Shown: positions 1,875 to 26,077 of the stretch, piece by piece
Layout: every line of letters starts with the position of its first letter
Position numbering within the stretch: position 1 is the first letter of the stretch
Assembly (NCBI GenBank): GCA_947629715.1
Contig: CANRET010000016.1
Span: 1-36,739, forward strand
DNA length: 36,739 nucleotides
From: an uncultured Akkermansia sp.
GTDB taxonomy: Bacteria > Verrucomicrobiota > Verrucomicrobiia > Verrucomicrobiales > Akkermansiaceae
Direction of reading: 5' to 3'
The notes under the pieces: model-generated
Told to the model about the DNA's origin: nothing
Seen by the model: the letters and a program-made list of their open reading frames with translations, nothing else
Database searches by the model: none
Made by a program: the position numbers and the translations under genes

Positions 1875-3215
1875 ATGAAACGAGAAGCTATCAAAAAACT
1901 GGAAGAATGGCACAAGAGTCCGCGGCGCAAGCCCTTACTGCTACTGGGGGCGCGGCAGGTGGGAAAAACGTGGCTGGCAAGGGAGTTCGGCAAGGGACAG
2001 TATCAGGGGGTAGCCTATGTTCGTTTCGACAAGTCGTCGGCAATGCGAGAAGCTTTCGAGCGCAGTTCGGATGTAAAACGCCTTCTGGAGGATATCCAGC
2101 TGATTTGTGGGGTGGAGGTACGCCCTGGCGATACGTTGATCATTCTGGACGAAATTCAGGAATGCTCGGCGGCACTGTCATCGCTCAAATTCTTCTGCGA
2201 GGAAGCGCCGGAATACCATATCATTGCCGCCGGGTCGCTGCTGGGCGTGGAGTTACATCGCAGTATAGGCTTTCCCGTGGGGAAGGTGGATCGAGTGATG
2301 CTTTATCCGCTCACTTTCACTGAATTTTTGACGGCCACAGGCCATGAGCGTTATGCAGAATTGCTGCGAAAGCGGGACTGGAAAACCATCACGCGCTTTC
2401 AAGACGTGTACGAAAACTTGCTGCGGAACTACTTCTACATCGGCGGCATGCCGGAGGCGGTCAAGGCGTATTTGGAGACCGGTCAATTTGTGCAAGTGCG
2501 AAAAGTGCAGATGGGGCTGCTCGCGGATTACCGAGCCGATTTTAGTCGGCACGCTCCGGAACCCGAGGTGGTGCGTCTCTGTGACGTATGGGACTCTATC
2601 CCAACACAGTTAGCTGATAACAAGCGTTTTGTGTTGGCGGATATCGTGCGCGGCGCCAAATCGTCCACTTATCGCGCACCTATCACTTGGCTGCAAGAAG
2701 CAGGCTTGCTTCACGCCGCCTATAATGTGAGGCAACCGCAGTTGCCTCTTTCCGGGTACCGAGATGAACAATTCAGACTCTTCCCTCTCGATGTAGGTCT
2801 GCTGGCGGCACAGGCCGGACTGGCCTCCGCCGTGCTGGTGGAGAAGAATGCGGTGTTCGGACAATTCAAGGGATCGCTCACCGAGCAGTACGTCTTTCAG
2901 CAGCTGCTGGCAGAGTGCGGGCAACATCCTTACTTCTGGCTGGCAGAGAAAGCGCAGGCGGAGATAGATTTCCTGCTGGAAACGGAGCGGGGAGTTGTGC
3001 CGCTGGAGGTGAAGGCTGAACGGAACCTGCGTGCCAAGAGTCTGCGCAGTTACTGCAAACGCTATAATCCCGCAAAAATCGCCCGCACCTCCATGCACAG
3101 CTATGGTGTGTCTTCCTATACCTACAACGATTCCCACGGCGCCGCACGCAGCTGCACCTTGATTGACATTCCCTTGTTTGCCATCAGTCAACTTCCCGTC
3201 GAGCTGCTCCGTTGA
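1875..3215 (+). CDS. AAA ATPase, DUF4143 / AAA_14 family
   Basis: From ATG 1875 the protein (446 aa) reads MKREAIKKLEEWHKSP and then a Walker A motif, GARQVGKTWL, followed by Walker B LIILDEIQE and a sensor-like AAGSLLG. The C-terminal half has the DUF4143 marks: YIGGMPEAV, LTEQYVFQQLL and a final EIDFLL...VPLEVKA segment that resembles a PD-(D/E)xK core. Such genes are abundant, mobile-looking singletons in gut bacteria; their cellular role is unsettled. Family members start at the equivalent of MKREAI, so I chose 1875. In-frame upstream starts exist at ATG 1839, ATG 1761 and TTG 1743, the last two inside the 33-bp repeats. No strong Shine-Dalgarno decides between them. Confidence 0.88.
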   Translation: MKREAIKKLEEWHKSPRRKPLLLLGARQVGKTWLAREFGKGQYQGVAYVRFDKSSAMREAFERSSDVKRLLEDIQLICGVEVRPGDTLIILDEIQECSAALSSLKFFCEEAPEYHIIAAGSLLGVELHRSIGFPVGKVDRVMLYPLTFTEFLTATGHERYAELLRKRDWKTITRFQDVYENLLRNYFYIGGMPEAVKAYLETGQFVQVRKVQMGLLADYRADFSRHAPEPEVVRLCDVWDSIPTQLADNKRFVLADIVRGAKSSTYRAPITWLQEAGLLHAAYNVRQPQLPLSGYRDEQFRLFPLDVGLLAAQAGLASAVLVEKNAVFGQFKGSLTEQYVFQQLLAECGQHPYFWLAEKAQAEIDFLLETERGVVPLEVKAERNLRAKSLRSYCKRYNPAKIARTSMHSYGVSSYTYNDSHGAARSCTLIDIPLFAISQLPVELLR

Positions 3216-3286
3216 TGCTCTTGGCTTCTATGCCGGTTTTCCGCCTACGGTATAAGAAGAACGAAGGCAGGATGTTGAGCAAGGAA

Positions 3287-3314
3287 AACCTCGCCCAGAT
3301 TTCCGAGCGAGGTT
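3287..3314 (-). terminator. Terminator of the beta-barrel gene
   Basis: AACCTCGC and GCGAGGTT form a perfect 8-bp stem (3287-3294 with 3307-3314) around a 12-base loop. Read on the minus strand the stem is followed by TTCCTT, so it suits termination of the minus-strand outer-membrane gene ending at 3344. On the plus strand no T-run follows. Confidence 0.6.
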
Positions 3315-3343
3315 CGATGGCAATGAATGGTGAAAGCATGACG

Positions 3344-4183
3344 TCAGAAGCTGATAGAGACGCCGAGGCGCAAGCCAGGATTAAGGATTTGTTGTTTTGT
3401 TTTGTGTACGTCCTCAGATGGTTCAGCTGTGGAGCCGGAGAGAATGGCTGCCATCACGATCCCTGCATTGGGTGAGAGACGAATGTTGGTGCCCACTTCA
3501 ATGGAGTAGGCAAAACCAACTTCTGAAGCAGAGACAGAGCCGGAAGGGTAACCAGGAATTGTTCCTGTAGCCTTTACGTGTTGGCTCACAATGCCAAGAT
3601 TGAAGCCCCAGAAGAGAGAGGTCGAATCCGAAATAGCAGTTTCTCCTCGGTATCCGGGCATGAAGTAGAGGTTGCTGACATCAAAATCGAGGTTGTAATC
3701 GATATAGCGTCCATAGCCGACATGTACCGTATTATCCTCGTCATCGGAACCGAAAGAGTATCCAACACGGAATGTAATGGCGTTTTTGGGGTTGATGTGG
3801 TAGAGGAAGGTCAGATCGACGCCAGTGGTGTTTACCTCCGGTCCATTCCCTATGTATCCCGAATAAATGCGCCTCGTCGCAAAGTTATATGAACCGGTAA
3901 TTTCTACACTGAAGCTCGACTTATTCTCCTGTCCCATCTGGGTGATCGTAGGAGCCGGAGCCACTGTTGGAACCGACACGGGCACCATCTGGGTTTGAGC
4001 TTGCTGAACGGGAACTACTGTTTGTCCAGAAGTCGCCGGGACGTAGGTGACGTTTCCCAATTGGAAAGCCTGCCCAGGTACGACTGAAACCGGCTGAATA
4101 TATTGCTGCGCCAATGCACAAGGAAGGGCGGCAGTAGCCAAGACGCCAACTGCTGTAAAATGCTTAAAATAAGCTAATAACAA
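3344..4183 (-). CDS. Outer-membrane beta-barrel protein, start region possibly phase-variable
   Basis: The product (about 279 aa from TTG 4183) has a signal-like segment FKHFTAVGVLATAALPCALA before QQYIQP. A Gln/Pro/Val-rich linker follows, then alternating strands (SFSVEITGSYNF, AITFRVGYSFGS, YSIEVGTNIRLS) ending in GLRLGVSISF. The terminal Phe is typical of BAM-inserted barrels. There is no in-frame ATG near the start. An ATG at 4212-4210 (MKTHIT) lies in another frame and would join the gene only if the adjacent C run on the coding strand were 7 or 10 long instead of 9. The true start is therefore uncertain. Function is unknown; an OmpA/OmpW-size surface barrel is the best description. Confidence 0.75.
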   Translation of the reverse strand: MLLAYFKHFTAVGVLATAALPCALAQQYIQPVSVVPGQAFQLGNVTYVPATSGQTVVPVQQAQTQMVPVSVPTVAPAPTITQMGQENKSSFSVEITGSYNFATRRIYSGYIGNGPEVNTTGVDLTFLYHINPKNAITFRVGYSFGSDDEDNTVHVGYGRYIDYNLDFDVSNLYFMPGYRGETAISDSTSLFWGFNLGIVSQHVKATGTIPGYPSGSVSASEVGFAYSIEVGTNIRLSPNAGIVMAAILSGSTAEPSEDVHKTKQQILNPGLRLGVSISF

Positions 4184-4187
4184 ACAC

Positions 4188-4196
4188 GGGGGGGGG
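4188..4196. repeat. Homopolymeric G9 tract at gene 5' end
   Basis: Nine consecutive G (C9 on the coding strand) lie between the upstream ATG at 4212 and the signal-peptide frame of the beta-barrel gene. Such tracts mutate by slipped-strand mispairing. With 9 residues the ATG frame hits a TAG soon after the tract; with 7 or 10 it is continuous with the gene. Confidence 0.9.
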
Positions 4197-4435
4197 TAAT
4201 ATGAGTTTTCATAATAGAATGTTGCATTACGTGACAACAGGGTTATCCTACCATGTTGGACAAAAGATGCAAGGGAAAAGCATTCATTTTCGAATTTTGC
4301 GCATTCAGCTTTTTCATCTTTTCCCTGTCGATGCTGCAACTTGTGACGATTTTGCCATGCGTCATGGAGCAGAAGTTTCACGGTACATCTCTTGCGAGGT
4401 AGCGAATTGATGCGATAGAAAAGAGGTGTCACCGG

Positions 4436-5689
4436 ATGTGGTGGTGTACGATGATGAAGATAAGATTCTATTTCATACTGTTGGCTTCGGCATGTGCGGT
4501 TTCGGCTTCCGAAGGAGAGTTTAACTGGGGTGATGTTCTTGCGCGTTCATTCAAGATATTTGATGCCGAGCGTGATCATGCGGACAATCCCTACGTTCAG
4601 GAAATCAGTTTTCGCATGCGTCCACAGTACCAGTGGGGGTATGTGGACCCCGCAGGCGGTGCGGGCCGTGTGAAGGGAGCTTCTGCCGGGACCGGCAAAC
4701 GAGGTAATGATGAATGGCGAAGGTTCCGCATCGGCGTTCAGGCGAAGGTGCTGAGGCATTTTACACTGCTCAGCGATTGGGATATTGGAGGGCTGAACGG
4801 CCGGTACAAATACAGCGATGGTCGGTGGGAGCGCGGTCGTTCTCAAGCAGCGGTGTACGAGCTGTATGTGCAGGGGAATTTTAAGTCGGTCACTTTCACA
4901 CTCGGCAAAAGCAAGCCGGCGTTCATCGGCGAATACCGCATCTCGGATTCCAAGCTGCCCACAATTGAACGCAGTGACTTAGTGAACCAGCTTGCGCCGG
5001 AGGCTCTCTACGGTATTTCTTTCACCAATTCAGATGCTACTGACAAGTGGGGATGGTTGCTTGGAGCGTGGGTAAACGGGCAGCACGATAACCTGTGGCT
5101 TGAGCCTGCTTTTCATACCGACACCAGCGTGATGACCGGCGTTTCTATCAGCCGTTCCCTCAAGGAGCAGAGCAGGGTATATCTCGATTGGATGCACTCT
5201 TTCATGAACAGGAGTAGCTCAAATGGATTCGTATCCTACGAAGGACCGGGCGCGCGGGATGTTGTAGTGCTCACATGGGAGACGAAACGCGGCAAGTTCG
5301 GCTTCATGGCGGAAGCGATGACGGGTTTCAATGTGACGGCATCCACAGGCAGGCGGGAGAACGCGGAGAATGTGTGCGGCATTTCGCTCATCCCCACCTA
5401 TCGTATCAGTCCACGGGTGGAAGCTGTGTTTCGCTATGCTCTGGCCATCGGTAGTGACGCCGTGGAGAGTGGCAGCCGCTACGCTCCCCCCAATAGCGCG
5501 TATTCTTCCACTTGTGACCTCTCGCAGTCGTTCTATTTCGGAGTCATTTTTTACCTTGATCCGGAAAAGACTGACCGCGCCCGGATCATGCTCGGCGCTG
5601 AGTACACTCATGCCTCCAGTTGCGACGCCATGGGTGAACGGGGTTTTACCGGGTGGCAGTATTCTGCTTCGATTCGTACGAATTTTTGA
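4436..5689 (+). CDS. Porin, phosphate-selective porin O/P-like
   Basis: The 417-residue protein begins with a signal peptide (MMKIRFYFILLASACAVSA) and continues as a porin-like barrel. Typical pieces are FRMRPQYQWGYV, WRRFRIGVQAKVLRHFTLLSDWDI, VTFTLGKSKPAFIGEY, and a C-terminal strand ending in YSASIRTNF with terminal Phe. The arrangement matches the Porin_O_P (OprP/OprO-like) family; ion specificity cannot be read from sequence. AAGAGG at 4421-4426 is well spaced for ATG 4436. ATG 4451 and 4454 give a more standard signal peptide and remain possible. The gene is divergent from the phase-variable-looking barrel, so two surface proteins share this intergenic region. Confidence 0.8.
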   Translation: MWWCTMMKIRFYFILLASACAVSASEGEFNWGDVLARSFKIFDAERDHADNPYVQEISFRMRPQYQWGYVDPAGGAGRVKGASAGTGKRGNDEWRRFRIGVQAKVLRHFTLLSDWDIGGLNGRYKYSDGRWERGRSQAAVYELYVQGNFKSVTFTLGKSKPAFIGEYRISDSKLPTIERSDLVNQLAPEALYGISFTNSDATDKWGWLLGAWVNGQHDNLWLEPAFHTDTSVMTGVSISRSLKEQSRVYLDWMHSFMNRSSSNGFVSYEGPGARDVVVLTWETKRGKFGFMAEAMTGFNVTASTGRRENAENVCGISLIPTYRISPRVEAVFRYALAIGSDAVESGSRYAPPNSAYSSTCDLSQSFYFGVIFYLDPEKTDRARIMLGAEYTHASSCDAMGERGFTGWQYSASIRTNF

Positions 5690-16871: not shown

Positions 16872-19800
16872 ATGATGAGAAAGGCGTACACATACACAGT
16901 AAGCAACAGTTCTCCCTCCAGGCAGGCACCGCAGTACAAAGTGCGTGGGAAAGGGGGAACGACCGGGGAACTCAGGGTGACGTATAAGCATGACTACCCT
17001 GCGTACCCGACGAATGTGTTGAACAGTCCTCGAAGACAAGTAAGAGCGTGTGGAGGAGGGGCATCTGGAATCTCAGACGTTCGCGTGGAGGGGAGTGTCC
17101 GAGATTCCGGGGCAATTACGATGGGCGGAAAAACGCTGAGATCCGTGGCCGTGGCGCGTGGCGGCGAGGGAGGAGAGATATTTGACGGGGGCTTTAAGTT
17201 ACCCGATGGACTCTACGGACTTGCTTTGCAGCAATACTTGAGGGATTGTGATGAGGGACAGCAAGGTTCATATTTTGACGCGACTCTGTCAGATGTCGAG
17301 GAGGTGGAGACTGAACCGGAAGATAATGAGGAAGAGGAAGAGGAGGAGACATGTGATGAATGTGACGAGGGGTGCGAATCCAGTGATGGTGGAGGTTCGG
17401 CGCAAGCCAGATCAAGCATTGGACGTGTGATGCTGCGTGCCGACGGAAGAGGAGAGAGTACATCGGGAGGAAGCGCAGCAGTGCGGTATTCATCGGCGAA
17501 GCGGATGAAATGGTCGGTTCAGTTTGGTGTGTTTCGAGGATTGTCGGGTGTGCCGGCGGGGAGGTTGCAGATAGCAAAACAACGGGAATACGAGGCGAAA
17601 CTCGGTCGGGTGGATGGGTTGGCCTATGCTCATCCTCTGGCGGCAACTCTTGAGGTGCCGGAAGGGGGAGTGAAGAACGGTGAAATGGTAGCTCTTTGTC
17701 GAGGGAGCGGACGCCTCAACTACATGCTGGATGCATCGGGAGTTGCCTTTTTCCCGGTGGGCGCTTCCCAGCAAACAAAGACTGTCCTGGCGCCGGTGAA
17801 GAAGATGAGCCGTGCGGCGGAAGACGCATGCGCGTTGAGTGAGGCGAACTACATTCGCGCTTCCTACACGGACGGATCAGCCGCCTTCTTTGACTTGAAG
17901 AATGGGCAGAGCATGGGATTCATTAGTTCCGAAGGCAAGGAACTGAACAGCGAGCAGGCGCTGCAATATCTCAACATCATGCGCGATGAAGGAGGAACAA
18001 TTCGGCAAATTTGGAATGCATGGGATGGATTGGCGGACATTGTGGAAGTTGATGAGAATGACCCGTCAGCGGGGTACAGCATCCGAATTTATCCGCCGGC
18101 GCAGGTGGAGGAACCCTCGGGAGAAGGGGAACTTTTCACCGCAACCGGGGAGCCGGTGCGCGTTTTTACGGTGCGAGGAAATGATGAGGAATACTCTCTG
18201 CGCATCGCTGAGCGAGATATGACCCTGCCGGAGAGTATGGGGGAGTACGTCACCACGTGGAAATGGGCGCACGAGGCGTGGAGTCAGACGACAGGGGAAG
18301 GAGCGGAAGCGGTGGAGAAGCATCGCGAGGCGGCGCAGCTGGATGAGACGCATTACAGCGTTGTGGAAAGCCTGCGCAAGAATGACGTCGAAGCTCTCCG
18401 CACCTATGAGGAATACGAGGAGGGAATCACGGGCAACCTGCTCAGGAAGCGCATCGTGGGATACGAGCATGCGGGGGCACGCACCACGACCTATGAGTAC
18501 AACGATATGGGTCAGCTCATTAAAACGGTGGACCCCGGAGGCGGCGTTTCTGAAAATGTCTATGATCCGCAGGGGCGTCCCACGGTGCAAAGTTCACCAT
18601 GGCGGGAGACCGACGTGCAGAATTACCACACGGAGTATCGCAGTGACAAGGATGTTTACAGCACGGAGCCGATCAGGACGGAGCACACGTACGATAAACC
18701 CGGAGAGGTGGGCATTGCGCTGACGGAGGAATACACCTATACGGAGCAGAATCATGTCAAACGCGTTGAGAAGCGTACGCGGTGCGAAGCTAACACTCTT
18801 CTCTCCGTGAAAGAAACGTGGCTGGCCGATGCACCGGGGGAATTTGCCGCCGGAAGGATCAAGATGGAGCAGGCGGCTGACGGCACGCAGACTCATTACA
18901 GCTACGCTGCAGCGGTAGGAAAGTACAACGCCCTCTACAGCGTTACAGCTGAGGTGCGGGATGAAGAAGGTAAACTCGTTGTCGGGCAGAGCACGCGGCG
19001 CGTGAGCTACGTCACGGAGGAGGGCAACACCGTACGCGAGGAAAGCTATGTGCTGGCAGCGGAAGATCATTGGCAGCTCACCAATGGCGCCACCATGGAG
19101 TACGATGTGCTCAATCGCCGCATAGCCACGCGCTGGGACAATGGGAGGAGTGAGTCCCAGGTGCTTACCTGCCAGGGTGAGCCGCTTCGTCGGGTGAATG
19201 CCGATGGCGTGGTGACCACCTACGCGTATGACAGTGCGAGGCAGCTTATTGAAACCACGCGCAGCGCCGTGTACGATGGCGATATTTGCATCACCCCGGA
19301 AATCATCACTGAGTACGAGCGGGACGCCGCCGGGCATGCGCTGAAAACGACGGAGCGCATCGGGGCTCTCACACGCAGTACGAGTATGCGCTACGACCTG
19401 CAGGGGCGTGTTATTGAGCAGACCGACGCCTTGGGGCGCATCACTTCCTTCGCATACAGTGAAGATGGCCTCACCACCACGGTCACCACCCCGGGCGGGG
19501 CGGAACAGATTACACGGCACAACCCCGATGGGACCATTGCCGAGGAAAGCGGCAGCGGGCAACGTCATTTGCTCTATGCGTATGACTACGCTTGGGGCAT
19601 TCGCCGCACCACGTTCCTGCCGGATGGGGTGACCAAAGTTCAGGTGCGCACGGTCAACGCGCTCAACCAGCGCGTGCTGCTGCGCGAGGCCACTTCGCTG
19701 GGGAACGCCACGATGCTCGACACGCGCCGCACCTACAATGCCAAGGGTCAACTGGTGCGCGAAAAAGTGGGCCCTCTCGCTCCCACGACCTTTGCCTACG

Positions 19801-22640
19801 ACGGCATGGGCGCCCTCAGTTGCCGCACCACGCTTCTCGCGGAGAGTGAAGCGGATGATCCCACAAAGAACCGCATCAGCAAGTTCCAATATTCTTTCGA
19901 AGTTGGAGATGATGACTCAGTGTACCGTGTGACCACAATGGAGCGCAGCAACGTGGCAGGAGAATGGCTTACGAGTGTGCAGCGCGAGCTTATTTCCCAA
20001 CTCTCTCCTGCTACGGAGAGCAAAACCGCTGTCACAGATGAGTATGGCAAGACGACCACGACGTGGACAGATTACGGCAGCGGCACACAGCGCATTGAGC
20101 ATCGACAGATTCCAACGAGCAGCATCATCGCTGAGGCGATCATCTGGGATGGCTTTGTCACTTCCGACAGGGACAACGTTGGCATCGAAAACCGTTTCAC
20201 GCGTCATTACGGGGATAGAGGCGTTACTTTCACCGCAACGGATGGGCGCGGCAACACAACCACCACAACGACGGATATCATTGAGAGAACGATCAAGACG
20301 GAGAACGCTGCCGGCAATACGACGACCACCGAATACTGCCCGTGGAACAACGAGCCTGCTGTCATCACGGACGCACTGGGCTTTACCGCCTGCGCAGAAT
20401 ACGATTCCCGCAACCGCAAAGTGGCAGAGTTTGGTACGGGAGTGCAACCGGTCGTGTACGAGTATGATGATGCAAACCGTCTGGTAGCCACGACCACGTG
20501 GCGGGATGCTCAGCAGGTGATTGCCACCGACCCCCGCGGCATGGAGGGCGGCGACATCACGCGGTGGGAGTACGATGACGCTTCCGGACTCGAGCTGAAA
20601 AAGATTTATGCGGATGGCCAGGGGAATACAATGACTTACAATAACGCAAACCGCCCTGCCACTCTTCTCAACGCACGAGGCGTGCTCACCACGTACGCAT
20701 ACAACAGTTCTCTGGGCGTGGTGAACAAAATCACCTATTCGGACGCTCCGGACGCCACGCTGACCGTCCGCTACAACATAGCGGGCAAACCCTTGCAGAT
20801 CAAGGATGCGGCAGGCACTCACACATTCACATACAATCGTTATGACCTCCAGGAGACAGAATCCCGGGCGGTAGATGGCGCCAAGTTCACCCTGCAAGAG
20901 GCTTACGATGAATACGGTCGCAGCGTCGGCTTCTCCCTGCTGAAAGGTGGCAGTGCGGTACACACTGTTAGTACCGGCTATGCACAAGATGGGCGCATCG
21001 CCACAGCAGGTTTCCGCCATGCCAATTCGGATCGCACGTGCCACTTTGCTTATCTGGCGGGCAGCAACCTTCTCGCTCAGCTCACCCTTTCCAACGGCAT
21101 GACGCTCTCTCAAACCTGGGAGGAAAAGCGGGATCTGCTCACGGAGATGAACTACATGCGCGGCGGCACGCTCGTTACCTCCCGTAGCTACGAATACGAC
21201 CCCCTCGCTCGTCCCACTTCGCGCGGCACCTATTACCCCGGCAAACAGCATCTGAAACTCATCGCCAGCTTCGGCTATAACGATCGCTCAGAACTCACCG
21301 CCGCTAAGCTCGATGCTTCCCCCTACGCCTACGCCTACGACAACGTCGGTAACCGCATCTCTGCCCGGGAGGACACCGAACAAATCACCTACGAAGCCAA
21401 TAAGCTGAATCAATACACGCTCATCAAGACGAATGGCGCCGATTTCATCCCTGACTTCGATGCGGATGGCAATCAGACTCTCATCCAAACTTCCACCGGT
21501 ATCTGGCACGTCACTTACAACGCTCAAAACCGCGCCACTCGCTACGAAAGCGCGGATGGCTCCACCATCATCACCTGCGTCTATGACTACATGGGGCGGC
21601 GCGTGCGCAAGCAGGTGGTCAAGGATGGCGTCACCACGCTTGACGATCGTTTCTTTTACCGTGGATACTTGCAGGTGGCTGCCTATGACTGGCTTCCCGC
21701 CACGAAGACTTCTCGCTGCTTTCTCGTCTGGGATCCCACTCAATCTGTCGCGACGCGTCCGCTGGCCATCCGTACCGGCGGCACGGCCTACGCCTATGGT
21801 TGGGACTTGACGAAGAACATCTGCGAGCTCTACGGTCCCAACGGTTACATTGTCAACCGCTACGCTTACACTCCATTCGGCAGCGTTACCCAAACTGAGG
21901 GTTCGGTCAATCAACCTTTCACTTGGAGCAGCGAATACCTCGACTCCGATCTCGCCCTTGTCTATTACAACTTCCGCTACTACAACCCGTGTGATGGTAG
22001 ATGGACGCGGAGGGATCCGATAGGAGAAAGAGCTTCTTATTCAGCCTATGGAAATGCTGCTCCTTTTGTTGTGGATATCCTTGGTTTGTACGCGGTTCTC
22101 TGTTTTGCCTACGATGCAGGCAAAATCATTGCAGTTGACAGGGATAATCCAACTGATCAGATCGAAGTAGACAATGTTTTTTCTGGCAATGGCGATGATA
22201 TCAATAATCCCAATTCACAACACCTAGAAGATCGTGGCCCCATTCCAGAGGGAGTATATTGGATCGGCGAACAACGCGTTGTACATGGTCGTGAAAGGTG
22301 GAGACGCTTGTACGGCGATGATGGAAAAGGAGGAAAATCATATACCGATGTCCAGGTGTATGATCCAAATACGAGACAAAGAATAACCAGAGGAGGTCTT
22401 AATTTACATGTGGGTACCCGCAGTAATGGATGTGTAACAGTAACTTCTGAGATTCCCGAGGGGAGCCCAGGGTATCCACAGAGTGGAGATTATGACAGAC
22501 TAAACAATTTTATAGAACAAAAGGGTAAGCAGACACCTTTTCATAATCCACGCAGATATAAAGACACGTATCACGGCGTTATGGTGGTTGTCAGGTGCGA
22601 GAAACAATGTGAAAAAGCAATAGAAAATCTGATATCATGA
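16872..22640 (+). CDS. RHS-repeat polymorphic toxin with L,D-transpeptidase-like (Tlde1/DUF2778-like) C-terminal tip
   Basis: The 1922-residue protein lacks a recognisable signal peptide or PAAR domain. Its first ~500 residues are unassigned and include an acid/Cys run (EEEEEETCDECDEGCE, near residue 160). From about residue 530 to 1720 it is a long RHS/YD-repeat shell (TTTYEYNDMGQLIKTVDPGG; YAYDNVGNRISA; LVYYNFRYYNPCDGRW). The core ends near residue 1738 at the DILGLY hinge. The ~180-residue tip holds GPIPEGVYWIG and LHVGTRSNGCVTV, with H1846 and C1854 placed like the catalytic pair of L,D-transpeptidases and Tlde1 toxins, which attack peptidoglycan. The tip is visibly more AT-rich than the core. 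The next gene overlaps it by ATGA. Delivery route is not encoded here. Confidence 0.9.
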   Translation: MMRKAYTYTVSNSSPSRQAPQYKVRGKGGTTGELRVTYKHDYPAYPTNVLNSPRRQVRACGGGASGISDVRVEGSVRDSGAITMGGKTLRSVAVARGGEGGEIFDGGFKLPDGLYGLALQQYLRDCDEGQQGSYFDATLSDVEEVETEPEDNEEEEEEETCDECDEGCESSDGGGSAQARSSIGRVMLRADGRGESTSGGSAAVRYSSAKRMKWSVQFGVFRGLSGVPAGRLQIAKQREYEAKLGRVDGLAYAHPLAATLEVPEGGVKNGEMVALCRGSGRLNYMLDASGVAFFPVGASQQTKTVLAPVKKMSRAAEDACALSEANYIRASYTDGSAAFFDLKNGQSMGFISSEGKELNSEQALQYLNIMRDEGGTIRQIWNAWDGLADIVEVDENDPSAGYSIRIYPPAQVEEPSGEGELFTATGEPVRVFTVRGNDEEYSLRIAERDMTLPESMGEYVTTWKWAHEAWSQTTGEGAEAVEKHREAAQLDETHYSVVESLRKNDVEALRTYEEYEEGITGNLLRKRIVGYEHAGARTTTYEYNDMGQLIKTVDPGGGVSENVYDPQGRPTVQSSPWRETDVQNYHTEYRSDKDVYSTEPIRTEHTYDKPGEVGIALTEEYTYTEQNHVKRVEKRTRCEANTLLSVKETWLADAPGEFAAGRIKMEQAADGTQTHYSYAAAVGKYNALYSVTAEVRDEEGKLVVGQSTRRVSYVTEEGNTVREESYVLAAEDHWQLTNGATMEYDVLNRRIATRWDNGRSESQVLTCQGEPLRRVNADGVVTTYAYDSARQLIETTRSAVYDGDICITPEIITEYERDAAGHALKTTERIGALTRSTSMRYDLQGRVIEQTDALGRITSFAYSEDGLTTTVTTPGGAEQITRHNPDGTIAEESGSGQRHLLYAYDYAWGIRRTTFLPDGVTKVQVRTVNALNQRVLLREATSLGNATMLDTRRTYNAKGQLVREKVGPLAPTTFAYDGMGALSCRTTLLAESEADDPTKNRISKFQYSFEVGDDDSVYRVTTMERSNVAGEWLTSVQRELISQLSPATESKTAVTDEYGKTTTTWTDYGSGTQRIEHRQIPTSSIIAEAIIWDGFVTSDRDNVGIENRFTRHYGDRGVTFTATDGRGNTTTTTTDIIERTIKTENAAGNTTTTEYCPWNNEPAVITDALGFTACAEYDSRNRKVAEFGTGVQPVVYEYDDANRLVATTTWRDAQQVIATDPRGMEGGDITRWEYDDASGLELKKIYADGQGNTMTYNNANRPATLLNARGVLTTYAYNSSLGVVNKITYSDAPDATLTVRYNIAGKPLQIKDAAGTHTFTYNRYDLQETESRAVDGAKFTLQEAYDEYGRSVGFSLLKGGSAVHTVSTGYAQDGRIATAGFRHANSDRTCHFAYLAGSNLLAQLTLSNGMTLSQTWEEKRDLLTEMNYMRGGTLVTSRSYEYDPLARPTSRGTYYPGKQHLKLIASFGYNDRSELTAAKLDASPYAYAYDNVGNRISAREDTEQITYEANKLNQYTLIKTNGADFIPDFDADGNQTLIQTSTGIWHVTYNAQNRATRYESADGSTIITCVYDYMGRRVRKQVVKDGVTTLDDRFFYRGYLQVAAYDWLPATKTSRCFLVWDPTQSVATRPLAIRTGGTAYAYGWDLTKNICELYGPNGYIVNRYAYTPFGSVTQTEGSVNQPFTWSSEYLDSDLALVYYNFRYYNPCDGRWTRRDPIGERASYSAYGNAAPFVVDILGLYAVLCFAYDAGKIIAVDRDNPTDQIEVDNVFSGNGDDINNPNSQHLEDRGPIPEGVYWIGEQRVVHGRERWRRLYGDDGKGGKSYTDVQVYDPNTRQRITRGGLNLHVGTRSNGCVTVTSEIPEGSPGYPQSGDYDRLNNFIEQKGKQTPFHNPRRYKDTYHGVMVVVRCEKQCEKAIENLIS
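21509..21934 (+). repeat. RHS-core direct repeat, copy 1
   Basis: These 426 bp are identical, base for base by eye, to 28169-28594, at an offset of exactly 6660. Upstream the two copies differ only by scattered substitutions; downstream they diverge sharply four bases into the codon run after WSSE. The identity suggests recent gene conversion or tip exchange. Confidence 0.93.
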
Positions 22641-23491: not shown

Positions 23492-23650
23492 GCAGAACAA
23501 GAAAGAGTATTCCGGAAAAATATGAAGAAGATGAAGGAAAAACTGGCAAGAAGGTCAAAACTGGGGCAGAGTGACGACGAATCAATGATGTCAAAACGTC
23601 CCGGTAGTGTTTCACCTCCAATTTCACGAGAAGTTCTTACCACAAACACC

Positions 23651-26077
23651 ATGAAAACAATTCTTATTTCCTTTCTCTTCTTCTCTCTCATAGGTTTGGT
23701 TGCAGGGGAGGATTTGCAGAAATTGCCGCTGACTGAGCTGGAACAGCAGGCGCAGGCAGGAGGAGCGGAGGCGCAGGCCGAGTTGGCGTACAGGTATGCG
23801 AACGGGGAAGGAACAGAAAAAAATTATGAAAAGGCGTTTGATTTAGCTAAAAAAGCGGCAGAGAAAGGGAATATAAAAGGTATGAGGGTGCTGGGCGGTC
23901 TTTATTTGGTAGGAGTGGGAGGGGCAGACAAAGATGAACAGAAAGGGGCAAAATTGATACAACAGGCGGCAGAAGCAGGTGATGAAATGGCGCAAATGAA
24001 ATTAGGAGTGATGCTTTATGTAGGAATGGGAATCCAAGTCGATAAAAAAGAAGCCGCATATTGGCTTCAGAAAGCGGCCAATCAAGGGAATGTCGAGAGC
24101 AAGACGAAGCTAGGCATCATGTACCTCAAAGGGGAAGGCGTGACGAAAGATCAGACGAGGGGAGTGTCACTTATACGGGAGGCAGAGGAGGCCGGGAGCG
24201 CAGAAGCAAGGGGAGTTATAGGCGTCATGTACCTCAAAGGGGAAGGCGTAGAGAAGGATGAGCAGAAAGGCTTGTCGCTGGTACGAGAAGCGGCAGAGGC
24301 TGGAGACGCACAAGCGCAGAGAAATCTCGCTATCGAGTACATGAATGGGGAAGTTGTGAGAAAGGGTGCAAAGAAGGCCGTCGAATGGTTGACGAAAGCG
24401 GCAGAACAAGATTACGCAGAAGCGATGAGGCTTTTGGCGAGAATGTATATGGGTGATGAATATGGGATTCAGGATTCTGTGAAGGGTATCTATTGGCTGA
24501 AGAGAGCGGCAGAGGAGGGGAACGCTGAGGCAAAGGGAGTTCTAGGCGTCATGTACCTCAAAGGGGAAGGCATTGCGAAAGATGAGGAGAAGGGATTATC
24601 ACTTACGCGAGAGGCAGCGGAAGCCGGGGACGCGGAGGCGCAGAGAAATCTCGCCGTTGTGTACTTGAATGGGGTCATTGTGGAAAAGGATGCAAAGAAG
24701 GCAATCGAATGGTTTACGAAAGCGACCGAACAAGGAGATGCAGCGGCGAGGGGGAGCCTCGGAGTCATGTACCTCAAAGGGGAGGGCGTAGAGAAGGATG
24801 AGGAGAAGGGGATGGCGCTTGTGCGGGATGCAGCGGAGGCGGGGGACGCCAGAGCAAGGAGGCAGCTTGGTTTCATGTACCTTCAAGAGGATAGCGTAGA
24901 GAAGGATGAGAGAAAGGGTTTGTCACTTTTACAGGATGCAGCGGCGGCAGGAGACGCGGAAGCGAGGGGATATCTTGGCGCCATGTATATCAATGGAGAA
25001 GGCGAGGCGAAGGATGAGGAGAAAGGCTTGTCGTTGGTTCGGAAGGCAGCGGATGCCGGAGACGCGCAATCACAGAGGAATCTCGCTGTTATATACAGGA
25101 ACGGAGAAATTGTGGAAAGGGATGCAGAAAAGGCAGTTGAATGGTTGACGAAAGCGGCCGAGCAGGATCACGTAGAAGCGATGAGGCTTTTAGCTGACAT
25201 GTACGGGAGCGATGAATATGGGATTAAGGACCCCGAGAAGGAAGTGTATTGGTTGAAGAGAGCAGCGGAGGTCGGAGACGCTGAAGCGAGGGGAAATCTT
25301 GGCGTCATGTATATCAATGGAGAAGGTGTGGCAAAGGATGAGGAGAAAGGCTTGTCGCTGGTTCGGGAGGCAGCAGAGGCAGGGGACGCAAAAGCTCAGA
25401 GGAATCTCGCTGTTATGTACAGGAACGGAGACATTGTGGAAAAGGATGCAGAAAAGGCAGTCGAATGGTTTACAGAAGCGGCCGAGCAGGAGCACGTGGA
25501 AGCGATGATGCTTTTGGTTGACATGTATATGAGTGATGAATATGGCATTCAGGATTCCGAGAAGGGTATCTATTGGCTGAAGAGAGCGGCAGAGGCCGGA
25601 GACGCGGAAGCAAGGGGAAATCTTGGCGCCATGTATATCAATGGAGAAAGCGTAGAGAAGGATGAGGAGAAAGGCTTGTCGCTGGTTCGGGAGGCGGCAG
25701 AGGCAGGAGACGCGCACTCACAGAGGAATCTCGCTGTTATGTACAGGAACGGAGACATTGTGGAAAAGGATGCAGAAAAGGCAGTTGAATGGTTGACGAA
25801 AGCGGCCGAACAGGATCACGTGGAAGCGATGATGCTTTTGGCGAGAATGTATTTAGACGATGAATACGAAATGAGGCAGCCTGAGAAGGCAGTGTATTGG
25901 CTGAGGAAAGCCGCCGAACAGGGAGATGCAGGAGCTCAATACTGTTTAGGGTTGCTTTACCTGAAGGGGATAGGAGTGTCGAAGGACAAGTTTGAGGCTT
26001 CTCGGTGGTTTGAAAAAGCGGCGGCGGCCGGAGACCAAGAAGCGAAAGAGATATTAAAAGCTTTCGATGGGAATTGA
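23651..26077 (+). CDS. Exported Sel1-repeat (SLR) protein, 21 repeats
   Basis: From ATG 23651 the protein has 808 residues: a signal peptide (MKTILISFLFFSLIGLVAG), a short linker (EDLQKLPLTELEQQAQAGG), then 21 full 36/37-residue Sel1-like repeats and a partial one. I chose this start because it gives a clean signal peptide; the frame is open 43 codons further upstream. Sel1 repeats form alpha-solenoids used for protein binding. Repeats 5-20 alternate in three types, giving a 108-residue (324-bp) higher-order period. The same leader occurs at 32985 and 35943. Being exported and next to an immunity-like gene, it may be a second immunity or scaffold protein; no partner can be read from sequence. 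Confidence 0.88.
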   Translation: MKTILISFLFFSLIGLVAGEDLQKLPLTELEQQAQAGGAEAQAELAYRYANGEGTEKNYEKAFDLAKKAAEKGNIKGMRVLGGLYLVGVGGADKDEQKGAKLIQQAAEAGDEMAQMKLGVMLYVGMGIQVDKKEAAYWLQKAANQGNVESKTKLGIMYLKGEGVTKDQTRGVSLIREAEEAGSAEARGVIGVMYLKGEGVEKDEQKGLSLVREAAEAGDAQAQRNLAIEYMNGEVVRKGAKKAVEWLTKAAEQDYAEAMRLLARMYMGDEYGIQDSVKGIYWLKRAAEEGNAEAKGVLGVMYLKGEGIAKDEEKGLSLTREAAEAGDAEAQRNLAVVYLNGVIVEKDAKKAIEWFTKATEQGDAAARGSLGVMYLKGEGVEKDEEKGMALVRDAAEAGDARARRQLGFMYLQEDSVEKDERKGLSLLQDAAAAGDAEARGYLGAMYINGEGEAKDEEKGLSLVRKAADAGDAQSQRNLAVIYRNGEIVERDAEKAVEWLTKAAEQDHVEAMRLLADMYGSDEYGIKDPEKEVYWLKRAAEVGDAEARGNLGVMYINGEGVAKDEEKGLSLVREAAEAGDAKAQRNLAVMYRNGDIVEKDAEKAVEWFTEAAEQEHVEAMMLLVDMYMSDEYGIQDSEKGIYWLKRAAEAGDAEARGNLGAMYINGESVEKDEEKGLSLVREAAEAGDAHSQRNLAVMYRNGDIVEKDAEKAVEWLTKAAEQDHVEAMMLLARMYLDDEYEMRQPEKAVYWLRKAAEQGDAGAQYCLGLLYLKGIGVSKDKFEASRWFEKAAAAGDQEAKEILKAFDGN
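24200..25927 (+). repeat. Sel1 coding repeats with 324-bp higher-order period
   Basis: Sixteen 108-bp units (repeats 5-20 of the protein) fall into types A (MYLKGEGV...KGLSLVREA), B (RNLAVMYRNG...AVEWLTKAAEQ) and C (LLADMYMSDEYGIQD). The order is ABC AB AAAB C ABC ABC, so full triplets recur. For example, the ATG of MYINGE is at 25307 and again at 25631, exactly 324 bp apart, with near-identical DNA between. This is a substrate for repeat-number change. Confidence 0.85.

Follow-up and report, generated by a model that had tools for sequence, protein, structure and literature searches.

A poly-C tract within a shared leader as a probable translational phase-variation switch of secreted-protein genes in an Akkermansia lineage

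Introduction

Whether a homopolymeric tract placed directly after a start codon could switch an outer-membrane protein on and off is the question raised by a locus of an uncultured Akkermansia sp. The window, i.e., the whole stretch of DNA that was analyzed (36,739 nucleotides), is an entire contig of a 2.2 Mb genome. The first-pass annotation of this DNA had proposed such a switch for one outer-membrane protein gene.

The repeats of the Neisseria pilC and opa genes, which toggle surface proteins, are located in the part coding for the signal peptide. According to the relevant passages of a published survey, the repeat is genic in both cases, with 9-20 G in pilC and 7-21 copies of CTTCT in the multi-copy opa genes (PMC5953494). 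Within Akkermansia, a G9/G10 homopolymer frameshift switch linked to mucus binding was described in 2026 for Amuc_1413 of A. muciniphila MucT, a Wzz/Wzc-like exopolysaccharide export gene; the paper places the tract within the coding sequence, in one passage at residue 55 and in another with 72 unaffected residues (PMC13055324). In addition, a passage of the 2011 genome paper on A. muciniphila mentions 17 genes with homopolymers longer than 8 bp and puts forward phase variation as a suggestion (PMC3048395). In view of these two reports, the annotation's remark that phase variation is little described in this group has to be given up.

Results

Reading frames at the C9 tract

The tract was read from the sequence as C9 at positions 4196-4188 of the minus strand, which corresponds to G9 at 4188-4196 of the plus strand. 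It is preceded by an ATG (4212-4210, minus strand), with AAA ACT CAT ATT A between the two, and this ATG is the putative start codon on the basis of its presence in all seven orthologues, the spacing of the leader and the in-frame reading of tract-less relatives. With nine C's, the frame from ATG 4212 reads ATG AAA ACT CAT ATT ACC CCC CCC CGT GTT TGT TAT TAG, giving a peptide of 12 codons, MKTHITPPRVCY, which stops at TAG 4176-4174 (OFF-frame short ORF, 4174-4212, minus strand; phase 2). With seven or ten C's, the same ATG is in frame with LLLAYFKHFTAVGVLATAALPCALA and the barrel. In the list of ORFs, the longest ORF of the barrel frame as assembled begins at GTG 4432, and no in-frame ATG was present near the barrel start. 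The coordinates and frame arithmetic given in the first-pass annotation thus proved right on re-reading, as did its statements on the seven- or ten-C frames and on the missing in-frame ATG.

On the minus strand, the tract is followed by the spacer GTGT (4184-4187), for which leader comparison gave a family range of 2-5 nt, and by a signal-peptide-like segment, LLLAYFKHFTAVGVLATAALPCALA, that extends over 4109-4183 from TTG 4183, the rival start codon. This segment shows the pattern LLLxxxK(R/H)F, which is common to the ankyrin and Sel1-like members described below; its cleavage site was placed by eye. The outer-membrane beta-barrel frame occupies 3344-4180 (minus strand, including the stop codon). 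Upstream of the ATG, a -35-like TTGCAT (4267-4272, minus strand), kept in all seven orthologues, is separated by 16 nt from a putative -10-like TAGGAT (4245-4250, minus strand).

The C9 tract is the sole run of at least seven C or G within the window. As 0.24 + 0.02 runs of at least nine G or C would be expected in the window from first-order base composition, the tract by itself is weak evidence. The weight of the sequence evidence is carried by the position of the tract together with its conservation in all seven orthologous genes and in 89 leaders from 12 genomes.

Two very long ORFs of 1922 and 851 codons were also observed in the window (16872-22640 and 23522-26077, plus strand), as was a strong GC and AT skew around 23-26 kb.

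The barrel gene and its orthologues

The 278-codon frame matched PF13505 (OMP_b-brl) in a Pfam profile search with an E value of 4.3e-08 and 34 bits, the cut-off being 28.7. The NCBIfam profile search with the barrel protein gave no match, the PDB sequence search gave no relative at E <= 1, and the AlphaFold2 model built from the seven aligned orthologues was unusable (mean pLDDT 29.5). Matches at E <= 1e-30 were found in 8 of 76 genomes of the genus, one of them (G026) at just 39% identity. The barrel orthologues represent seven species with a single genome for each; the six named records with an orthologue are MAGs of "uncultured Akkermansia sp." whose samples bear the label Lapin, and the related named records are MAG consensus assemblies.

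An ATG, a K or R codon at the second position and a tract of C7-C9 were found at the equivalent site in all seven orthologues, with TTGCAT-16-TAGGAT upstream and TTGTTATTAG downstream of the tract, replaced in one orthologue (L036) by CTGTTATTAG. Both the spacer and the tract vary among the seven. In none of them was the ATG in the barrel frame as assembled (six were determined by script and L036 by hand), an outcome with a chance of (2/3)^7, or about 6%. All seven barrel ORFs are free of internal stops, and a dN/dS of 0.12-0.28 over the 21 pairs indicates purifying selection. The gene is thus maintained and presumably expressed at times.

Three adjacent barrel paralogues are located on another contig of the same genome (G000:C15:26972-30601) and form a natural set for comparison that lacks the leader. 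Since these relatives carry ordinary MKKT... signal peptides, we infer that it is the barrel lineage in the window that seems to have acquired the leader. A Porin_O_P-like gene (PF07396; 4436-5689, plus strand) and the barrel gene are oriented divergently, the former lying some 220 nt from ATG 4212, and the two may share regulatory DNA.

A leader shared by many secreted-protein genes

In the genome containing the window, 36 distinct tracts of at least eight C's were counted on both strands, and several of them belong to the motif ATG...TA-C8/9-NN-TTTGTTATTA, with which further large ORFs begin. Of the 76 genus genomes, 13 contained the pattern CCCCCCN{0,5}TTGTTATT and 63 did not; the reversed control pattern gave five hits in total over all 76. 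One of the 13 genomes (G034) had a lone site without a convincing gene. From 83 distinct motif sites, 74 leaders were retained that had an ATG 10-30 nt upstream of the tract and a downstream frame of at least 100 codons. The nine sites dropped (L070, L080, L117, L118, L133, L156, L178, L179, and L183) lacked such an ATG or had a downstream frame below 100 codons; among them, L118 has a real-looking leader in phase with an ORF that ends after 75 codons. The distance from ATG to tract was 16 or 19 nt in 70 of the 74 leaders, which may reflect two ancestral forms.

When the conserved N-terminus of one ankyrin-repeat member was used as the query, independently of the motif, 17 of the 76 genomes gave matches. 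The 40 further members examined from this search are a partial set, as the weakest few matches were left out. A tract of at least six C's was found in 15 of them and a tract-less leader in 12; two had a shifted ATG start (L210 and L212), two were cut by contig ends (L190 and L191), and nine had no recognizable leader (L206, L215, L216, L217, L220, L221, L222, L224, and L225). In total, 89 tract leaders (C6-C11; 74 with and 15 without the motif) were obtained in 12 genomes, the barrel orthologue L036, which has CTG in place of TTG 4183, lying outside this number. Besides the leader of the barrel gene, the genome containing the window contributed seven of them (L044, L047, L075, L076, L078, L083, and L218). 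They share one layout, consisting of a promoter-like motif, ATG, 13-16 nt, C6-C11, 2-5 nt and a signal peptide.

The leaders precede 74 ankyrin-type, 6 barrel and 5 Sel1-like proteins, and 4 proteins could not be typed from the downstream sequence. In the Pfam search, Ank_2 was above the cut-off in all three ankyrin-type proteins chosen (E values of 4.5e-38, 5.8e-35, and 1.4e-29), and among three proteins chosen for the Sel1 profile, L140 scored above the cut-off of 30.7 (88 bits) and L170 and L159 below it (about 23 bits). The named NCBIfam models tried for the ankyrin protein were rejected because their scores were far under the cut-offs and reflect ankyrin repeats only. The leaders of L125 (G016) and L185 (G096) were identical at 45 of 45 positions and the N-termini behind them differed, in an ungapped comparison that overstates downstream mismatch counts wherever spacers differ. 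With near-identical 45-nt leaders before different proteins, the leader appears to behave like a cassette. The leaders are related by descent, so that none of these counts are independent.

The promoter-like motif, TTGNNN-N14-20-(TGATA, TAGGAT, TGGTA or TATACT) located 25-60 nt before the ATG, was found in 64 of 74 leaders versus 0 of 70 control windows; it is a post hoc motif, chosen after the sequences had been inspected. A strict sigma-70 scan of 3200-4450 detected no promoter and no terminator. Should the motif act as a promoter, the tract would be part of the transcript, and control would then more likely be translational than exerted through promoter spacing.

Further tracts were observed in the same genome. 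Related C9 and C8 tracts in C-strand orientation lie near position 1500 of contig C17 (L062) and near 1501 of contig C33 (L073); their context is shared between the two and unlike that of the leader, with TTGATTTTCAGCGTTTTGCATAACTA following the tract. Near the end of contig C62 (L081), a C13 tract at positions 27-39 of the C strand is preceded by ATGTTGAGGAACTACC and resembles the leader of L155 in G026, the downstream frame being different. On contig C42 (L077), a C8 tract is located shortly after an ATG and upstream of an open frame of 500 codons that has its own internal ATG with a signal-peptide-like start; this is possibly another kind of tract-bearing leader.

The start codon of the leader genes

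The barrel might be translated from TTG 4183 in all cells, in which case ATG 4212 and the tract would be irrelevant or would form a short upstream ORF. This explanation is unlikely, although it has some points in its favor at the barrel locus: six of seven orthologues have the TTG, the segment starting from it (LLL...KHF...) is by itself a plausible normal signal peptide, and none of the seven barrels is ON, yet the ORF is under purifying selection. The family-wide comparison points in the other direction. If the ATG were irrelevant, about one-third of the tract leaders would be in frame with it by chance, and ON leaders should not be depleted; the 89 leaders comprised 12 ON and 77 OFF (p 2.6e-5, indicative only as the copies are related), which favors the ATG for the family. 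Tract-less relatives were mostly continuous from the ATG, 9 of 12 being in frame compared with the 12 of 89 having a tract (Fisher p 2.1e-5); the 12 were classed by hand, with L201, L204, L205, L207, L208, L209, L211, L213, and L214 in frame and L187, L194, and L199 out of frame.

The would-be TTG start is also lost in several members. This position is occupied by TCA, TCG, CCG, or TTA in 8 of the 15 motif-less members with a tract, leaving these 8 without a start codon there, a proportion that gives no family-wide rate since the 15 were selected for motif absence. In 5 of the 74 motif members (L146, L150, and L154 of G094; L166 and L167 of G095), the TTGTTATT string containing the TTG is out of the gene frame, an additional clue that translation does not begin there. 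Moreover, the barrel paralogues on contig C15 begin with ATG. Taken together, tract-less members that read through from the ATG and tract members lacking a later start codon support phase variation based on the ATG, and the family evidence speaks against a TTG start for the leader family. For the barrel gene itself, with its six TTG codons and no ON allele, the TTG start survives with low weight.

Variation in tract length and phase

ON members were found in 8 of the 12 genomes with at most two per genome, and the OFF members were divided between the two OFF registers (42 and 35). The leader family therefore holds both ON and OFF alleles; the barrel gene has no ON allele among its seven orthologues, at one genome per species. 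Among 12 pairs whose flanks are at least 93% identical (some members shared), which compare species or paralogues, nine differed in tract length and seven in phase. For example, L140 (G008; C9, OFF) and L174 (G014; C10, ON) had one mismatch over 195 flanking positions, and a single assembly (G025) contained both L161 (C7, ON) and L164 (C8, OFF). Judging from these near-identical pairs, the tract seems to change more rapidly than the sequence on either side of it.

Slippage could also take place in RNA polymerase or the ribosome instead of in the DNA, so that a genetically OFF gene would give a constant low amount of full-length protein. The predominance of OFF leaders in consensus sequences (77 of 89), together with a barrel that is still under purifying selection, would fit this explanation. 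It is nevertheless rather improbable as the whole account, for near-identical copies differ in tract length as DNA slippage predicts, and the distribution over two OFF registers and the ON register reveals no single fixed offset. The two kinds of slippage could act together.

As a third explanation, the tract could act as a regulatory element at the RNA or DNA level, e.g., a target of an sRNA or protein, whose length tunes expression with no frame switch. The tract lies inside a presumably transcribed leader downstream of the promoter-like motif, and homopolymer length-dependent regulation of this kind is reportedly exerted by RepG on tlpB in Helicobacter. This explanation is very improbable, as it accounts neither for the in-frame reading of 9 of 12 tract-less members nor for the retention of the ATG. 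A chance homopolymer or an assembly artefact in a decayed gene, to which the only mildly unusual run of nine would conform, has a negligible probability given the 89 leaders and the intact, selected barrel ORF, and a mere chance run is ruled out by conservation at seven of seven orthologous sites. The G9 run alone was likewise rejected as proof of a switch, in view of the number of such runs expected.

Discussion

The C9 tract is probably a translational phase-variation switch within a leader shared by many secreted-protein genes. Translation would begin at ATG 4212, and the tract would code for a short run of prolines that separates the start from the signal peptide's hydrophobic part. During replication, slipped-strand mispairing at the poly-C, which we infer to occur within a strain, would add or remove C's and bring the downstream frame into or out of register. 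Nine C's would then yield only the 12-residue peptide (OFF), and seven or ten C's the exported barrel (ON). With the same leader, numerous secreted proteins in this Akkermansia lineage, predominantly those with ankyrin repeats, would each be under a switch of their own.

The proposal that a tract turns an outer-membrane protein on and off was accordingly strengthened in one respect and widened in another. It gains support from the conserved layout of ATG and tract, the ON and OFF members, the near-identical OFF/ON pairs, the continuous reading of most tract-less members from the ATG and the loss of the would-be TTG in several members; the restriction to one gene did not stand, the leader being common to many secreted-protein genes. 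As in a contingency locus, the tract seems to be placed between the start codon and the protein so that changes in length would shift the frame, and its length differs between near-identical copies, as compared across species or paralogues. Rather than being an isolated case, the arrangement resembles a collection of random on/off switches spread over the genome.

The class of mechanism is already established by Neisseria pilC and opa and by Amuc_1413. As in the Neisseria genes, a simple repeat within the coding region would toggle surface proteins, a functional analogy drawn from the passages mentioned (PMC5953494). Unlike those genes, the present ones belong to a different phylum and encode unrelated proteins; the Akkermansia leader is shared among several protein families, with ankyrin-repeat proteins in the majority, and its poly-C lies right after the start codon. 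Amuc_1413 shares the genus and the homopolymer frameshift, but is, in the passages cited, a single gene with an internal tract, whereas the poly-C described here is part of a shared signal-peptide leader. The words "ankyrin" and "Sel1" do not occur in the main text of that paper (PMC13055324). The passages of the 2011 genome paper name capsule genes (PMC3048395), and the leader motif is absent from the 63 genus genomes noted above. In the open-licence literature on phase variation in Akkermansia or Verrucomicrobia, poly-C tracts and ankyrin repeats, surveyed partly by title, no description of a poly-C leader common to several genes was found. What appears to be new is a portable leader through which one lineage would possess its own set of switchable secreted proteins.

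More tentatively, promoter, ATG, poly-C, and signal peptide might form a portable cassette that has spread among unrelated secreted-protein genes and recombines between them. Such a cassette would maintain a mostly OFF repertoire, in which each cell line makes only a small part of as many as 14 or more proteins, and could constitute a system of antigenic or receptor variation in a gut commensal.

If the switch operates as proposed, one lineage within a well-studied commensal genus associated with mucus would diversify its secreted proteins through dozens of slippage switches that act independently, a way of life otherwise mainly tied to mucosal pathogens. Differences from colony to colony would be predicted, and the presence of a gene in a MAG would not imply its expression. 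The part played in the gut by secreted ankyrin-repeat proteins could also be tested by comparing ON with OFF populations.
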